IMG/VR virus record: IMGVR_UViG_3300013195_000003
Span: 41,080-105,079 of that record
Length of the DNA: 64,000 nucleotides
Reading direction: 5' to 3' (one strand)
Source: a virus
In this document: positions 14,850-52,985 of the stretch, one piece after another
Numbering within the stretch: the first letter of the stretch is position 1
How the letters are laid out: each line of letters begins with the position of its first letter
The notes under the pieces: generated by a model
Told to the model about the DNA's origin: nothing
The model's database searches: none
Seen by the model: the letters and a program-made list of their open reading frames with translations, nothing else
Made by a program: the position numbers and the translations under genes

Positions 14850-16109
14850 ATGGCAGAATTTTTCATCGACGTTGGTAAGATTAAGCTTACCTGGCAAGGC
14901 AACTGGTCATCTTCCACAGATTATGTGGTTGATGACCTTGTGTGGTATGATGACGGCAGTACCGTTAGTACTTACATTTGTGTTGCCGACAATACAAACC
15001 AAGGACCATCTGTTACTGGTACAGTAAACACTAGTTACTGGAATCTATTTGCTGGTGGTGGTCTTGCTGGTGGTTTGCAACCTGGAGGTACTACATCTAA
15101 TCAGATTCAGTATAGATCTGGTTTAGCACTGGGTGCTGAAACTGGATTTGAATATGATCCTGCAACTGACATTATGTCGGTCCCTGCTATCAGTATTGGT
15201 GGTAGTGCAGCTGGTTCTCCCGCATATGATCTGGATGTTACTGGTACAATGCGTGCCACTCAGATCTGGGAAGGTGCCAATCAATTGACATATAATATCA
15301 GTGGTGGACAGGTTACTACTGGTACTATTGACAATGCTAGACTGCCTGCAACAATTTCTGTTACTGACTTAGCAGCATCCGCAGGACTTGTTATTAAGAC
15401 TGATGGTCTGGTTTATGACACTTCCACTGATCGTGTTGGCATTGGTACTGCCGTACCTGCAGCACGTTTGGATGTTAAATCAATTGCATTATCAACAGCT
15501 GATGATGTAGTTGCTCGTTTTAGATCTGATCATACCAATGCATTTGGTACGTTCATTGAAGTGATGCCTAATACATCACAGGCACAGAAGTCTGGTATTC
15601 ATTTACATAAGAACTCTCTTAGAAGTGAACCTGCTACTATCGTTAATGATGGTGGTGTTCTTACCATTAGCACAGAGGATACTGCTAATCCTACAGTAAA
15701 TATGGATTTGGGTGGTGTTAACAAATTTATGTTGACATCTGATTTGTTAGAGGTCAATACACCATTAAGACTTAATGGTTGTTTTGATGAAGCTGTGGAT
15801 AATACTACTATCAGCTCTGGTACTGTTACTATCGATGCAACAGATGCATCTGTGTTTGCAATTACTAGAACTGAAGCTATCACTTCGATGAGCATTAATT
15901 TGCCAGCAAATGCTCGTGGTGTTTCTGTTACTTTGGTGATGACATCTAATGGTAGTTACTCTATTGCCTGGCCACCTAATACTAAGTGGGCTGGTGGTAC
16001 ACCTCCTACATTATCTTCCGTTGCTGGTAGAATTGACGTGGTTACATTATCAACTACTAATAATGGTCTGTCTTGGTTAGGTTTCGTTGGAGGACTTGAT
16101 TTCCAATGA
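14850..16109 (+). CDS. Fibre-like virion protein with carbohydrate-binding-like N-terminus
   Basis: 419 aa, starting directly after the previous stop. Residues 1-70 (IDVGKIKLTWQGNW...Y.VDDLVWYDD..YICV......W) look like a small CBM5/12-type aromatic module and match the N-terminus of the gene at 16765. The middle has phage fibre motifs (QIQYRSG, VGIGTAVPAARLDV). The end (TKWAGGTPP..SS..., then a LSWLGFVGG tip) matches the C-terminus of the 16765 product. It overlaps the next gene by 4 nt (ATGA). Likely a trimeric fibre or a base for one. Confidence 0.7.
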   Translation: MAEFFIDVGKIKLTWQGNWSSSTDYVVDDLVWYDDGSTVSTYICVADNTNQGPSVTGTVNTSYWNLFAGGGLAGGLQPGGTTSNQIQYRSGLALGAETGFEYDPATDIMSVPAISIGGSAAGSPAYDLDVTGTMRATQIWEGANQLTYNISGGQVTTGTIDNARLPATISVTDLAASAGLVIKTDGLVYDTSTDRVGIGTAVPAARLDVKSIALSTADDVVARFRSDHTNAFGTFIEVMPNTSQAQKSGIHLHKNSLRSEPATIVNDGGVLTISTEDTANPTVNMDLGGVNKFMLTSDLLEVNTPLRLNGCFDEAVDNTTISSGTVTIDATDASVFAITRTEAITSMSINLPANARGVSVTLVMTSNGSYSIAWPPNTKWAGGTPPTLSSVAGRIDVVTLSTTNNGLSWLGFVGGLDFQ

Positions 16110-26586: not shown

Positions 26587-26772
26587 ATGGACACTGAATC
26601 AAAAACTGAAAAACGCCGTAGAGCATTGGGATTGTTCATTGAATCAGTATACAAACCTGATCCTCAGCTTCGCCAATGTGCACATAATCAGATTTGTTAC
26701 CACGAGTTGTTAGAGTACAGAGATGAAGTTCTCCAATATCTGTACTCTAAGTATGACAGCGAATTCAATTAA
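26587..26772 (+). CDS. Small charged helical protein
   Basis: 61 aa. A TAAAAT box (26554-26559) lies 27 nt before the ATG. Basic N-terminus (TESKTEKRRRALGLFIES) and a helical CYHELLEYRDEVLQYLYSKY. It converges on the minus-strand oxygenase gene with a 4-nt overlap of stops. Not recognised. Confidence 0.6.
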   Translation: MDTESKTEKRRRALGLFIESVYKPDPQLRQCAHNQICYHELLEYRDEVLQYLYSKYDSEFN

Positions 26773-27407
26773 GTATTCTTGAAGTAACGGATCATTCCTT
26801 CACTAGGAACAATATATGATCCTTCTTCAGTGTCATTAGTTTCACTACACATACGAGGCATTCTACTCGCCCACGTTGTTGCAATGTATTTTGTACCACC
26901 GATGGGCGGGTTTCCTCTATGTACGTGTGTATAACTTGCAGGGAAGATAACAGTCTTGCCCTTCTCTGGTTTCACACGTACACCTTGATATAAGAATTCA
27001 GTTTCACCACCTTCAAAATCATCATTGAGGTATGTAATGATCACAAATTGTCTGCCTTGTGTCAAGAAACCAGCTCCATCATAATGCCAACGATGGAAAC
27101 CCTCACCTGGATTAGTTGCTTGTACTTTAGTAGCATCCATATAGTAATCTTGCTGTGCTAGATGTTGAAATTCATCCAGATATTTTGTACCAGCAAGCTT
27201 TGACCATTGAGTATGGAGAGTATGACGTAAATCAGGTCTTGATCCTTCAGTTAACCAAAATTGAAAGTCTTTACGATCAATTGTATCTTGCTTAACTGAC
27301 ACTTCATTCTTACTCGCACCACTACGTAATTCTTCTGCATAAGCAATCAATGCATCACAAAAACTACTAGGTGCGTGGTTTTTATATTCACGAATAAAGT
27401 TCTCCAT
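26769..27407 (-). CDS. 2-oxoglutarate/Fe(II)-dependent dioxygenase, PKHD-type
   Basis: 212 aa. Complete motif set: H108 and D110 in RWHYDG, YLNDDFEGGETEF (126-138), H163 in THVHRGNPP and K173 ten residues on. The pairing of HRGN with a Lys binder links it more closely to the 1077 product than to the PiuC-like one. It sits on the minus strand behind a 59-aa gene with an ATG/stop overlap (TAATG). The opposite orientation to every other gene suggests a separate acquisition. Substrate unknown. Confidence 0.88.
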   Translation of the reverse strand: MENFIREYKNHAPSSFCDALIAYAEELRSGASKNEVSVKQDTIDRKDFQFWLTEGSRPDLRHTLHTQWSKLAGTKYLDEFQHLAQQDYYMDATKVQATNPGEGFHRWHYDGAGFLTQGRQFVIITYLNDDFEGGETEFLYQGVRVKPEKGKTVIFPASYTHVHRGNPPIGGTKYIATTWASRMPRMCSETNDTEEGSYIVPSEGMIRYFKNT

Positions 27408-28784: not shown

Positions 28785-28820
28785 CTGTGGATAACTCTGT
28801 GGAAAAACCTGTGGAAAACT
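28785..28820 (+). repeat. Three tandem 12-bp DnaA-box repeats
   Basis: Units CTGTGGATAACT, CTGTGGAAAAAC and CTGTGGAAAACT follow each other with no gap. Read on the other strand they give one TTATCCACA (the E. coli consensus DnaA box) and two TTTTCCACA (the form reported for cyanobacterial DnaA boxes). The segment is non-coding. Another CTGTGGAAAACT lies at 29209-29220 in the next gene. Confidence 0.8.
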
Positions 28821-28836
28821 AAATGGTTAAAAAAAC

Positions 28837-28890
28837 ATAGGTTGTGTGTTCTATTCAGCTCAGTCCTTGTAGTCTTAGCACGCAACCTAT
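28837..28890 (+). repeat. 12-bp inverted repeat around a 30-nt loop
   Basis: Arms 28837-28848 (ATAGGTTGTGTG) and 28879-28890 (CACGCAACCTAT) pair with a single G-T step. The loop includes CTATTCAGCTCAGTCC. It sits between the DnaA boxes and the AT-rich repeats. It could be a cruciform, a structured RNA or a protein site; a tRNA was considered and rejected. Confidence 0.65.
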
Positions 28891-28926
28891 CGAAAGTCAA
28901 GAATCTGTAAAACTCCGAAATCTCAG

Positions 28927-28992
28927 AAATCTTAAAATCTTAAAAAGTCAAAAAGTTTAAAAAGTCAAATTTTAAGATTTAAAGATTAAATA
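28927..28992 (+). repeat. AT-rich segment with 13-mer and 9-mer repeats (possible unwinding element)
   Basis: TTAAAAAGTCAAA occurs at 28940-28952 and 28957-28969. AAATCTTAA occurs at 28927-28935 and 28935-28943 and inverted at 28972-28980. Almost no G+C. Next to DnaA boxes this has the form of a duplex-unwinding element. Confidence 0.65.
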
Positions 28993-28996
28993 GACT

Positions 28997-29026
28997 TTGC
29001 CAAACCCCGTGTGGGTATGGTATAAT
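28997..29026 (+). promoter_or_regulatory. Sigma-70-like promoter TTGCCA-18-TATAAT
   Basis: TTGCCA (28997-29002), 18-nt spacer, TATAAT (29021-29026), 21 nt before the ATG at 29048. Starts directly after the AT-rich repeats. Confidence 0.7.
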
Positions 29027-29047: not shown

Positions 29048-29449
29048 ATGACTACTAAGTACGAAGAACTACCATCTACAGCTATTGAGTATATGGAACT
29101 AGACTTTGATAGTTCTGTAGTTAAACTAGTATATAAATCCAATACTAATAAACAGTATGGATATAAATGTGAAGATCTAGACGAATTTCAGAGTGCTTTT
29201 ATGCAACTCTGTGGAAAACTAGAAGCTGAACAAGATAGAGACGATGAAGATAATCTCATTGAATCTGAAGAAGATACTATTGCTAGAGAAGATGCTAGTA
29301 TTGGTAAGTTTATTAATCAAAGAATTCAATTGAGCAATCTAAAGCTAGACTATATCCTAGAGTTAACTCAGGATATGACTGAGAAGGGATGGGATAGTTT
29401 TGACGGTAGTACTGTACCACAAAATGCTGTTATTGTTGGTGATGAGTGA
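29048..29449 (+). CDS. KTSC-like small protein
   Basis: 133 aa. Residues 9-47 (AIEYMELDFDSSVVKLVYKS followed by NKQYGYKCEDLDEF) resemble the KTSC fold, a short beta domain sometimes fused to nucleases or synthetases. The middle is very acidic (EQDRDDEDNLIESEEDT) and the end helical. Its position right after the origin-like region makes a replication role conceivable but unproven. Rich in AT-type codons. Confidence 0.6.
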   Translation: MTTKYEELPSTAIEYMELDFDSSVVKLVYKSNTNKQYGYKCEDLDEFQSAFMQLCGKLEAEQDRDDEDNLIESEEDTIAREDASIGKFINQRIQLSNLKLDYILELTQDMTEKGWDSFDGSTVPQNAVIVGDE

Positions 29450-29828: not shown

Positions 29829-30152
29829 ATGCGCAAGATCGAATCCCTGATGAACGCTGCAGTTTCTAACAACAAGAACTGGACAAACAGCAACACCAGT
29901 GTTACGTATTGCCCCGAATCTGACGAGTCCCGTGTATACCTGCACGGCAACCACATTGCCACTGTGGGTGACAACTTCCTTCAAATCTTTGATGGTGGTT
30001 GGCAATCCAACACCACCAAATCTCGCCTGAATGCTCTCATCAATTGCTTCTGTAATGGTGTGACCGATGGTGTACATCAGAAGGACTTTGCTTGGTACAT
30101 TCGTGACAACAATGTGACCCGCGATTTCGTTAACGGTTACATCTTCGCTTGA
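29829..30152 (+). CDS. Conserved-type small cyanophage protein, unknown function
   Basis: 107 aa. Recognisable lay-out MRKIESLMNAAVSNNKNW, then VYLHGNHIA and IFDGGWQSNTTKSRLNAL, seen repeatedly in small cyanophage proteins. Single-gene unit with its own promoter and a following terminator. Function unknown; no catalytic residues stand out. Confidence 0.75.
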   Translation: MRKIESLMNAAVSNNKNWTNSNTSVTYCPESDESRVYLHGNHIATVGDNFLQIFDGGWQSNTTKSRLNALINCFCNGVTDGVHQKDFAWYIRDNNVTRDFVNGYIFA

Positions 30153-36132: not shown

Positions 36133-36822
36133 ATGGCAGCTTTAGCACTACAAACTGGCGTATGTACTGGTCACGCTTGCTGGCCACCGATGGGTTATGG
36201 ACCTTCTTTGGCACAAACAGTGCGTGTAACGAAGATTGCACCCCTCCACGACACTGTTGTGCGTCTTCCTCACTGCAAACCTTGCGGAAAAAACCCTGCT
36301 TGCCACCCTGGAGCAGTGGTAGCGTCTACAAAAAATGTACTTGCTGGTACAGATGTTCCTGGAATTCCGTTAGTTGTGCCCAAATCTGGTGATCCAGAGA
36401 CTGAAGCAATCCTAACTGCCCTTGCACCTAAGCTTTGTGCAACTAGATTACCAATTGCAAGGATATCAGATTCTTGTGGTTGCGGTTCTGCGGTCGCTGT
36501 GGGCGCTCCTAACGTCCTTCTGGGCACTGGTGCTGGGGCAGCAACGTCTATGGCGAAAGCAGCGGTTGCTGGGGGCGTTGGTGCTGTTGCTGCATTAGGT
36601 GCTGCCGCGGCCATCTTTACAATTGCTGGAATGGCTGCTAGTATGTTAGGGTCTGCAGGCGGCGGAGGTGGCGGTGGATCTTCTGAAGATCCGTCATTTG
36701 ACATCGACGAAGCTGCAGGTGACCAGGAATATGATCCATCTGTCACTAAAACTATTGGTGGAAGAGGTGGATTGTCTACTGGCAAAGACGCATCAACCAT
36801 TTCTACAACTTACTGCGATTAA
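36133..36822 (+). CDS. PAAR-like spike tip protein with hydrophobic helix
   Basis: 229 aa. N-terminal TGVCTGHACWPP and the later CGCGSAVAVGAPNVLLG follow the PAAR pattern (repeated G.PNV and Cys/His), with metal candidates C11, H14, C16, H47, C48, C51, C57, H58, C115 and C117. Unlike the short T4 gp5.4, it then has a hydrophobic alanine-rich helix (about 138-175), a run of seven Gly and an acidic tail. It would cap the central spike and pierce the outer membrane. The helix might insert into a membrane on injection (inference). Confidence 0.75.
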   Translation: MAALALQTGVCTGHACWPPMGYGPSLAQTVRVTKIAPLHDTVVRLPHCKPCGKNPACHPGAVVASTKNVLAGTDVPGIPLVVPKSGDPETEAILTALAPKLCATRLPIARISDSCGCGSAVAVGAPNVLLGTGAGAATSMAKAAVAGGVGAVAALGAAAAIFTIAGMAASMLGSAGGGGGGGSSEDPSFDIDEAAGDQEYDPSVTKTIGGRGGLSTGKDASTISTTYCD

Positions 36823-37892: not shown

Positions 37893-38291
37893 ATGCCGAG
37901 AGAGGTTAAATTTAAGGATTTATCCATCTCGATGGGTATTAATCCCGTTACTAAGGATGTACTCAACACCACAGGTGAAGCTGCGGTGAAAAGGGCGTTG
38001 TATAATATTATTTCAACACGTAAAGGAGAGAGGTTCTATAGACCCGACCTCGGTAGTAATATTGCTGATCTTTTATTTGAACCTCTCGATGCTGCTACAG
38101 CTTCTTTGATATCTTTAGAGATAGAATTTGTTATACGGAAGTATGAACCAAGAGTAAATTTGATTCGTGCTGACGTTGATCTAAACTATGACAATAACGG
38201 TTTCGATGTGGTTATCGCATTTGAGATTATCGGTGTGGAAACAGATGTGCAGGTACGCGAAGTAGAATTCTTCTTAGAACGAACTCGATAA
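37893..38291 (+). CDS. 25: Baseplate wedge subunit gp25
   Basis: 132 aa, the usual length. Conserved features of the gp25/GpW fold: VKRALYNIISTRKGERFYRPDLGSNI, split here as VKRALYNIISTRKGER and FYRPDLGSNIADLLFEP, with the EPR and acidic end typical of the lysozyme-like baseplate family (no catalytic role). It joins gp6 and gp7 in the wedge. The stop overlaps the gp6 start by one base, matching the T4 order. Confidence 0.93.
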   Translation: MPREVKFKDLSISMGINPVTKDVLNTTGEAAVKRALYNIISTRKGERFYRPDLGSNIADLLFEPLDAATASLISLEIEFVIRKYEPRVNLIRADVDLNYDNNGFDVVIAFEIIGVETDVQVREVEFFLERTR

Positions 38292-40105
38292 TGTCTTACA
38301 TTCAGGTTGCTAATTTAGACTTTGATCAGGTAAAGAGATCGCTGAAAGAGTATTTACGCTCTAATAGCGATTTTACTGATTACGACTTTGAAGGTTCGAC
38401 TCTTTCGACCCTGATCGATCTACTTGCCTATAACACCTACTACACGGCGTTTAACGCCAATATGGTAGTCAATGAGGCGTTCCTTACTTCCGCCACTCTC
38501 AGAGACAATGTGGTGTCTCTGGCGAAGCAAATAGGATATGTTCCTAAGTCAACTGTTGCTCCTACAGCTGTTGTTAGTTTAGTAGCAGATTACAGTTCCG
38601 AACAGAGAGTTCCTGATCAGGCAAAACTCCCCAGAGGTTCTCAATTTGTTACTAGAATCAACGGTGTATCATATTCCTTCATTACTGTAAGGGATTATGT
38701 CGAAAGTGTAGATTCTAGAGACATTGCCACTTTTAATGATGTAGAGATTAAAGAAGGCAATTACGTAATTGAAAATTTCACTTTCAATTCGGCTATTCCG
38801 CAACGCTTCATTTTAAGAAACCCAAATATCGATACCAGCACTATTAGGGTAACTGTTAGGGAAACGCTGGACAATACAAATGTTACTGAATATCAGTTAG
38901 CTTCCAATATCATTGGATATGACGGATCATCTAATATTTTCTTTATTCAAGAAGGTGAAGATGAGAGATATGAGATTATTTTTGGCGATGGAGTCTTAGG
39001 CACTAAGCTTACTACTAATAACTTCATCGAAGTTTCTTATATCACGACTAACGGTTCTGATGCAAACGCTGCAAGAGTGTTTACTTACTCTGCCGTCTTA
39101 GAGGATACTGTCGGTAACATTAATTATTCACCTACTATTACACTTACCACAGTATCGGCTGCTGGAGGAGGAGAAGAACTTGAATCAATCGATAGTATTA
39201 AAACAAACGCTCCAAAAGTTTTCAATGCGCAAAATCGAGCGGTTACCGCAGATGACTACGAATCCGTTATCCGTAATATTTACCCTGCGATTGCTGACAT
39301 TGTTTGCTATGGTGGAGAAGAAGCAGATCCTCCCGAATATGGGAAGGTCAAAATTGTAATCAAACCTCGTTTTGCGACTAAGTTGTCGCAATACACGAAA
39401 AATTTGATTGGACAAGAATTAAAGAAGTATGCAGTAGTGTCGGTTACTCCCGAAATTATTGATCCTTCCATCATTTACGTTGAATTAGACTCTAAGGTTT
39501 ATTTTAACCAGTCTAAGACAACTCTTAACGAGTCTCAGTTAAAAGCTGGTGTTATTAGTTCTCTTGAGGCATATAAAACGACTTCTGATTTAGAAAAATT
39601 TAACGGTCGCTTTAAGTATAGTCGTGTTGTTGGTATTATTGACTCTACAAACAATTCGATCACCTCTAACGAGACGAGTATCACACTCAGAAAGGATTTT
39701 TATCCCGTTATGAATACTGTTACTCAATATGAAATTTGTTATCAAAACCCACTCTCTTCTGGATGTACTCATCCATCTGTTCAGAGTACAGGATTCGTAA
39801 TTGCAGAGTTTCCTAGCGATGTCGTTTACTTAGCTGACGATCAAGTGGGAAATGTTTACCTTTATAAGATTGACGCAACTACAAAAGACCGTTTTGTGCT
39901 GAATCCTCAGCAAGGAACTGTTGATTATATCAAAGGAGAGGTAATGTTGAATCGGTTAAATATAATCAAGGGAACGTATGATGATAACAAGATTGAACTT
40001 CGTGTTCAACCTAAAAATAAAGACATTTATGCACTTCGTGAAGCATACTTAACTCTTGATTTAACAACTAGCGTCTTCCTCATTCAAAAAGAATCGTTAA
40101 TCTGA
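38291..40105 (+). CDS. 6: Baseplate wedge subunit gp6 (J-like)
   Basis: 604 aa, near the size of T4 gp6. N-terminal IQVANLDFDQVKRSLKEYLR and the LIDLLAYNTYYTAFNANMV segment are hallmark gp6 sequence. The central J-like part includes FNAQNRAVTADDYESVIRN. gp6 forms the ring that holds wedges together around the hub. TAATG coupling with gp25 and a 3-nt gap to the next gene. Confidence 0.92.
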   Translation: MSYIQVANLDFDQVKRSLKEYLRSNSDFTDYDFEGSTLSTLIDLLAYNTYYTAFNANMVVNEAFLTSATLRDNVVSLAKQIGYVPKSTVAPTAVVSLVADYSSEQRVPDQAKLPRGSQFVTRINGVSYSFITVRDYVESVDSRDIATFNDVEIKEGNYVIENFTFNSAIPQRFILRNPNIDTSTIRVTVRETLDNTNVTEYQLASNIIGYDGSSNIFFIQEGEDERYEIIFGDGVLGTKLTTNNFIEVSYITTNGSDANAARVFTYSAVLEDTVGNINYSPTITLTTVSAAGGGEELESIDSIKTNAPKVFNAQNRAVTADDYESVIRNIYPAIADIVCYGGEEADPPEYGKVKIVIKPRFATKLSQYTKNLIGQELKKYAVVSVTPEIIDPSIIYVELDSKVYFNQSKTTLNESQLKAGVISSLEAYKTTSDLEKFNGRFKYSRVVGIIDSTNNSITSNETSITLRKDFYPVMNTVTQYEICYQNPLSSGCTHPSVQSTGFVIAEFPSDVVYLADDQVGNVYLYKIDATTKDRFVLNPQQGTVDYIKGEVMLNRLNIIKGTYDDNKIELRVQPKNKDIYALREAYLTLDLTTSVFLIQKESLI

Positions 40106-51164: not shown

Positions 51165-52985
51165 ATGTCTGCAATTATCACTGATCTTTTTAGAATTCAT
51201 AATGCACAGCAGTTCGTTGAGGCGCTGGCGGAACCTGACACTGCTTCTCCTGCAGAGGAAACGGCAGCTGAGTCTGGTACCCAACGTACTCGATTGTACT
51301 TCTTTATTGGACGCCCTCAAGAGTGGCGTGCGTACTTAGAATTGTACGCAATCAATAACACTTTCCAAGAAGGCGAGATCGTCTATCAGGGTTCTTCCTA
51401 TCCTGGTGGCGCTACCGTCTATGGTACGGTCGAAAAAGTGTTCCCTAACTCGGTTCTTCTCTCTGGCGTTAACGGCGCTTCTGGTCAGAACTCCAACTTT
51501 GTTGCGGGTGTAACTGTTACAGGTAACACAGGTGGCGCTACTGCTAAGGCAGGTGTGTGGAGAACTGGTACTGAGAACACCCCCACACAACCTTTCGACT
51601 CGCAGGAAGAAAAGTTTGAGATCTTCGATGATATGATCTCACTGAAGCGTGTTAAGAAGGATGACGTGACCTTTGTGGTCAAGCGTTATAACTTCGGTGC
51701 TAACACCGTGTACGATATGTACAAGCCTGACTACAGCAGCGCCAAAACTGCTGCAACAGGTGCAACCTCTCTGTTTGCTTCCACATTCTATGTGATGAAC
51801 AGCAGCTATGAGGTGTTCAAATGTATTTACAACGGTCAGACCCCTACCGATCCTAACGGTGTGGTCTCTGTGACCGAACCCACCAAGGTCCAGTCGATCT
51901 CTGGTATCTTTATCGAACCTGAAGATCCTGGCAACCCTGGTTTCCGTACTGACGGTAAGCGTCCGTACGTTTGGAAGTATATGTACACCATCCCTACTGA
52001 TAGTGTGCTGAAATTCCTGTCTACTGACTTCCTTCCCATCGTGGAAGAGACCGCAGTGACAACCGCAGCTGTTGACGGTGCTATTGACACTATTTTGGTT
52101 ACCGATGCTGGTACCAACTATGACCCTGGTACTTACTATGCTCCTATTCAGGGCAATGGTGCTGGCGGTATCGCTAAGCTGGTTGTTGATGCTGGTGCAA
52201 TTGTTGAGGCAAGTCTCCAAGCAAATGGCACAGGTTATACCTATGCTTCTATCAACTTGAGCGATGTCTACAGCGATGCTGCTCTGACTACTCCTTCCAA
52301 CATTGACGCCAACAGCGATGCTACTGGTGGTGCTCTGGAAGTGATCATTCCTCCTCAGGGTGGTCACGGTAAGGACCCTGTTGAGGAGCTGGGTGGTAAG
52401 CGTGTGATGATTAACACTCGCTTGACCTATGATGAAGGTGAGGGCGACTTCCCGACTGATAACGACTTCCGTCGTATCGGTCTGCTGCGCGACCCTTACA
52501 ACTACAACTCCACCGACTTTGCTACTGCTGATAACCTGAGTGCTACTCCTGCACTCAAAGTGCAGAACCCCTCTGGCGACTTCTTCGTTGACGAAGAGAT
52601 CTCCCAAACCTACACTGATGGCAATGGCGACACCGTTATCGCTAAAGCTACTGTGGTTTCTTGGAAGGGTACTGTTGACGGTGTGACCTACAACATCCTG
52701 AAGTACTTCCAGTCTCCTGATCGTCACACCCATAACGGTGTTGTGTATCCGTTTGATAATGGTGCTGACACGGTTTCTGGCGGAACTTCGCTTTCTACTG
52801 CTACGGTAAATAGTACATATAATACTCCTGGTGGTCAGACTGACGGCGGTGTTATCTTTGCTTCTGGTCTCGCTAATCCCGAAATCGAAGGCAACTCTGG
52901 TGACATCATCTATATCGAAAACCGTCGCGCCATTTCTCGTGCTTCTGACCAGATTGAGGACATTAAGCTCGTTGTCGAGTTCTAA
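51165..52985 (+). CDS. 8: Baseplate wedge subunit gp8
   Basis: 606 aa. Starts IITDLFRIHNAQQFVEALAE, the cyanophage gp8 opening, and has RLYFFIGRPQEWRAYLELYA. Later KRPYVWKYMYTIPTD and the C-terminal ENRRAISRASDQIEDIKLVV are also gp8-type. gp8 dimers connect gp7 and gp10 in the wedge. It carries one GTNYDPGTYY-type repeat, longer than T4 gp8 (334 aa). Codons are more G+C-rich than in flanking genes, as in highly expressed genes. Confidence 0.9.
   Translation: MSAIITDLFRIHNAQQFVEALAEPDTASPAEETAAESGTQRTRLYFFIGRPQEWRAYLELYAINNTFQEGEIVYQGSSYPGGATVYGTVEKVFPNSVLLSGVNGASGQNSNFVAGVTVTGNTGGATAKAGVWRTGTENTPTQPFDSQEEKFEIFDDMISLKRVKKDDVTFVVKRYNFGANTVYDMYKPDYSSAKTAATGATSLFASTFYVMNSSYEVFKCIYNGQTPTDPNGVVSVTEPTKVQSISGIFIEPEDPGNPGFRTDGKRPYVWKYMYTIPTDSVLKFLSTDFLPIVEETAVTTAAVDGAIDTILVTDAGTNYDPGTYYAPIQGNGAGGIAKLVVDAGAIVEASLQANGTGYTYASINLSDVYSDAALTTPSNIDANSDATGGALEVIIPPQGGHGKDPVEELGGKRVMINTRLTYDEGEGDFPTDNDFRRIGLLRDPYNYNSTDFATADNLSATPALKVQNPSGDFFVDEEISQTYTDGNGDTVIAKATVVSWKGTVDGVTYNILKYFQSPDRHTHNGVVYPFDNGADTVSGGTSLSTATVNSTYNTPGGQTDGGVIFASGLANPEIEGNSGDIIYIENRRAISRASDQIEDIKLVVEF

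Follow-up and report, generated by a model that had tools for sequence, protein, structure and literature searches.

Host-type DnaA boxes at one fixed place in the genome suggest, as far as the sequence can tell, that T4-like cyanophages may start DNA copying with a host protein. In the 64-kb window analysed here, taken from a virus record of 105 kb, a single conserved intergenic unit upstream of the baseplate gene 6 cluster holds the boxes, an AT-rich spacer and a core; in the window genome this unit additionally contains a stretch of very AT-rich DNA with low stability and a predicted early-type promoter. From this anatomy and the comparison with T4, we read the element as an origin of phage replication, placed like T4 oriE, that would recruit host DnaA, with a probability of roughly 0.55. 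T4-type phages bring their own replisome, and no requirement for host DnaA is known in them. A literature search, which covered few subscription papers, found no report of DnaA boxes for T4-like cyanophages. The features of the window are as follows.

28785-28820, minus strand: three gap-free tandem 12-bp units with DnaA boxes, read in the window and kept in relatives
28786-28794: box 1, TGTGGATAA, which is TTATCCACA on the minus strand
28798-28806: box 2, TGTGGAAAA, which is TTTTCCACA on the minus strand
28810-28818: box 3, TGTGGAAAA, which is again TTTTCCACA on the minus strand
28821-28841, plus strand: conserved AT-rich spacer AAATGGTTAAAAAAACATAGG, present in phages with boxes and in the box-less clade
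28837-28848 and 28879-28890: 12-bp inverted repeat, ATAGGTTGTGTG / CACGCAACCTAT, 11 of 12 positions paired
28867-28900, plus strand: conserved core TTGTAGTCTTAGCACGCAACCTATCGAAAGTCAA, present across Kyanoviridae and IMG/VR contigs
28918-28992: low-stability AT-rich segment by nearest-neighbour energy, candidate DNA unwinding element
28997-29026, plus strand: sigma-70-like promoter, TTGCCA-18-TATAAT with TG before the -10 hexamer, 11/12 match to consensus
29048-29449, plus strand: small downstream gene, 133 aa, phrog_4357
29829-30152: Kyano_Gp96
36133-36822: PAAR protein
38291-40105: gp6
51165-52985: gp8

As in an oriC-type origin, host-type DnaA boxes are clustered at the window array, where the three tandem 12-bp units described in the earlier note were confirmed. 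The motif TTWTCCACA occurs seven times in the window, always on the minus strand, compared to 1.6 expected, and none of 100 shuffles reached seven; the chance expectation for a box triple within 33 bp is ~6e-7. Single boxes outside the array lie at 15794, 29210, 35111 and 44692, those at 29210 and 44692 having been pointed out before and the other two missed. That the boxes are of the host type is well supported, because relatives have kept them and the host oriC has matching ones. For cyanobacteria, TTTTCCACA is the oriC box given in the literature, and DnaA binding to it was tested in vitro for Cyanothece (PMC4674748). Given this identity of the boxes, host DnaA very probably binds the array. 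No phage-coded DnaA scored above the Pfam cut-off in 14 phage genomes. The assignment of the window to a T4-like cyanophage was supported by matches to gp6, gp8 and Kyano_Gp96.

Among 121 Cyanobiaceae genomes sampled as hosts, three carried the 12-bp box tandem as found in the phages. At the host loci L324 and L326 the tandem lies between dnaN and thrC, both genes being confirmed by NCBIfam, and at L325 its flanks were the same, as judged by eye. The 28 regions examined upstream of dnaN held 21 boxes in 18.5 kb, compared to none in 49.7 kb of adjoining sequence. The exact box is not universal in hosts, since about half of these regions have none.

Downstream of the array, the spacer starts 2 bp past the last box, and 28821-28845 is 76% A+T. 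The segment from 28918 onward starts 100 bp after the boxes and is the least stable 75 bp of the window in nearest-neighbour energy; its base composition and predicted stability make it a candidate for the adjacent AT-rich unwinding element of an oriC-type origin. It contains an 18-nt inverted repeat (28928-28945 / 28970-28987), two copies of the 13-mer TTAAAAAGTCAAA (at 28940 and 28957) and two of the 11-mer AAATCTTAAAA (at 28927 and 28935). The AT-rich stretch reported in the earlier note is real, although its description in terms of 13-mers and 9-mers was a loose reading; similarly, the reported 12-bp inverted repeat exists but is private to the window genome and not conserved. A stem-loop in the core was rejected, as the arm complementarity over 63 loci was not above permutation (13.4 observed vs 13.9 permuted). 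Promoter-like sites in the region as a whole were no more numerous than in shuffles, and Rfam and tRNA scans of the window gave no matches.

Conservation of the boxes in close relatives, on which the earlier note had made its reading depend, was indeed observed. The element was found in 15 of the 19 Kyanoviridae genomes examined, a figure for this sample and not for the whole family because the genomes were largely chosen for matching this region. In blastn searches the intergenic element was matched in many Kyanoviridae genera, with 80-93% identity to the nearest relatives over the best-matching 52-121 bp; the gp6 proteins of the window and the same relatives are 49-51% identical. The box-bearing phages span deep splits, with gp6 identities of 34-51%. 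Relatives have two to three boxes, arranged in a 12-bp tandem or with one box inverted and the rest direct. An AT-rich spacer near AAATGGTTWAWWAAACATAGG comes next, and a stretch of variable sequence separates it from the core TTGTWGKCTTAGCACGC..CCTATCGAAAGTCAA. In many relatives the core is followed by TGTGNCA inverted half-sites, a TTGACA/TATAAT-type promoter, an AT-rich tract and the next gene, which places the promoter between core and tract, as opposed to after the tract in the window. The arrangement TGTGNCA-N10-TGNCACA, ~10 bp past the core, is kept in many relatives (e.g., L012, L022 and L025) and absent from the window.

The genome position was also constant. The window element is intergenic, between small genes and 9.5 kb upstream of gp6, and the phages measured all have the element on the gp6 strand, 2.0 to 9.5 kb upstream of that gene. 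The gene downstream of it in relatives is T4-GC_805-like. The window has a gene for a 2OG-Fe(II) oxygenase on its minus strand (26769-27407), whereas in several relatives this gene lies just upstream of the element and on the strand of the element. Syn9 carries the element at about 52565-52690, S-PM2 at about 19.2 kb and Syn1 at about 58.7 kb; for Syn9, a review mentions a single predicted origin (PMC2984593).

Clustered boxes were confined to one locus per genome. Of the 126 boxes in the 19 complete genomes, 39 fall inside the 120-bp element, a further 12 lie no more than 1.2 kb from it and 75 are elsewhere. The density is 21.7 boxes per kb inside the element compared with 0.021 per kb elsewhere, a ~1000-fold difference. 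Every cluster in these genomes (at least two boxes within 60 bp) was in the element or at most 1.2 kb away. AG-345-P14 (L026), with boxes and no core, was excluded from the counts, and the IMG/VR tandem-box matches listed, being a mixture, were not used for frequencies. DSL-LC03 (L020) has a second array of five boxes ~400 bp downstream of its element (80507-80579 of the record), and S-RIM32 and S-SZBM1 have a second box pair within ~1 kb. The tandem-box stretch also gave blastn matches with weak E-values to several microviruses (Microviridae, Gokushovirus and bajarodmic viruses; H85-H87, H90, H94 and H95), and host-type DnaA boxes may occur in these small viruses too.

The phages without boxes, S-WAM2, S-H9-1, ACG-2014h and Sf-CH1b, form one clade in the gp6 tree with a support of 100/99, and the deepest gp6 branches include the box-bearing Syn19, ACG-2014g, S-H38, S-SZBM1, DSL-LC03 and the window phage. 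Three of the four, together with similar IMG/VR contigs, have repeats of the TTCTCAATAA and TTGAGAATCAATAA types where other phages have the boxes and keep the spacer and core, and L164 has one box plus such repeats. The TTCTCAATAA and TTGAGAATCAATAA repeats were seen upstream of the core in L022, L023, L024, L148, L151, L157, L159, L167, L169, L173 and L174. Their half-site looks slightly like a Fur box. A search for a host factor for TTGAGAATCAATAA gave eight single matches in 101 host genomes with no clear shared context. One loss of an ancestral array would fit the gp6 tree, although we can only infer it because the tree has long branches and a midpoint root only. Since this clade has no boxes, DnaA must be dispensable at least there.

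The promoter next to the element allows a reading without replication, in which host DnaA would regulate the early promoter or promoters of the downstream small genes. The sigma-70-like promoter after the element in the window, the TTGACA plus TATAAT-type promoters after it in many relatives, and the other operator-like inverted repeat that most members of the box-less clade have instead of boxes are consistent with such transcription control. However, the distance from the boxes to the promoter downstream is ~180 bp in the window and mostly above 100 bp in relatives, the constraint applies to the unit of boxes, spacer and core and not to the promoter, and the 12-bp tandem is also present at the host origin region, so we regard this role as rather unlikely. 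Box-less phages share the core, which indicates that some of the function does not depend on DnaA, and a phage protein or another host protein might bind the boxes of an element for packaging, partition or recombination instead of initiation. This is improbable for a site with the exact host DnaA box in a 12-bp tandem, so strongly enriched at one locus and identical to the box of the host oriC region.

A datA-like decoy would also have host boxes packed closely at one locus. The phage copies would then soak up host DnaA and stop initiation on the host chromosome, with the copy number of the array climbing with phage DNA, and the additional array in DSL-LC03 would fit such titration. Most elements, however, have only two or three boxes, and titration needs no AT-rich spacer, conserved core or oriE position; the spacer and core would not be expected of a pure titration site, and we consider this explanation quite improbable.

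The replication origin proposed in the earlier note is favoured by the context, namely the AT-rich neighbour, the oriE position, the single locus per genome and the predicted early-type promoter. On the other side are the non-conserved 12-bp repeat, the clade without boxes, the different place of the promoter in the window and in many relatives, and the GC skew, which had been named as a check and showed no switch of the oriC type at the element in Syn1, S-PM2, Syn19, S-H9-1 or Syn9; skew is a weak test in these genomes because it follows gene orientation and coding strand. If the element is an origin, host DnaA would bind the box array early in infection and help to open the AT-rich DNA beside it. 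The T4-type replisome of the phage (gp41/gp61, gp43 and gp45), whose genes cyanomyoviruses possess (PMC2984593), would then enter at an early transcript made by the host RNA polymerase or at the opened strand. Such an origin would serve the first rounds, and recombination-dependent replication would take over later. In one clade the DnaA boxes would have been lost, most members having another repeated site in the same slot. A substitution of DnaA for a missing gp59 helicase loader was considered and rejected, as gp59-like presence does not track the boxes: gp59-like N domains were found in Syn19, DSL-LC03 and ACG-2014g, all box-bearing, and were not detected in the remaining box-bearing phages or in the box-less ones.

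A more specific form of the origin reading, to which we give slightly less than even odds, is a modular, host-initiator-dependent origin with host oriC boxes in place of the T4 oriE repeats, in which one clade swapped the array for another repeat. The start of phage replication would in that case be tied to host DnaA. A conserved host-type array at the oriE position in abundant marine phages would link phage replication to host initiation control, and cyanophages would gain a defined origin instead of a predicted one.

Compared with known origins, the phage element has the same 9-mer and a similar number of boxes as the dnaN-adjacent cyanobacterial oriC (here dnaN-thrC of Cyanobiaceae), and in some hosts the same 12-bp tandem. 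Unlike that oriC, it resides in a lytic phage with a T4-type genome layout and without dnaA or dnaN, and it runs on into a phage-specific core. In temperate phages and plasmids, DnaA-box origins such as P1 oriR have host DnaA boxes beside an AT-rich segment, together with a phage or plasmid Rep protein that has its own iterons. Boxes and an AT-rich segment are likewise present in the cyanophage element, whereas no Rep with iterons was identified. The T4 origins oriF and oriG combine a promoter with an AT-rich unwinding element and an R-loop, similar to the promoter beside the AT-rich segment here, and T4 origin transcripts prime synthesis at such elements (PMC3016281). No DnaA boxes are described for oriF/oriG in the literature consulted, and these origins use MotA middle promoters, whereas cyanomyoviruses lack motA.

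Direct repeats are present at T4 oriE, which requires an early promoter (PMC3016281). The evenly spaced repeats identified at the T4 site have a 24-nt period, read about GTTGAAGGTAAT and lie inside gene 5, repEA/repEB being on the other strand, as opposed to the intergenic position of the cyanophage element; T4 has no DnaA boxes at 76000-84500. Homology of the oriE repeats with the cyanophage boxes was rejected, and the parallel is one of position and layout, because the T4 repeats are coding repeats of gene 5 with a different sequence. Within these terms the two sites agree in two respects. Both lie shortly upstream of gene 6 (1.7 kb for oriE), and both have evenly spaced direct repeats, which are boxes with a 12-bp period in the cyanophages and unrelated in sequence. 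For the early promoter of oriE, the consensus matches in the window and many relatives are candidate counterparts. The cyanophage element could inform the role of the oriE repeats in T4 itself.
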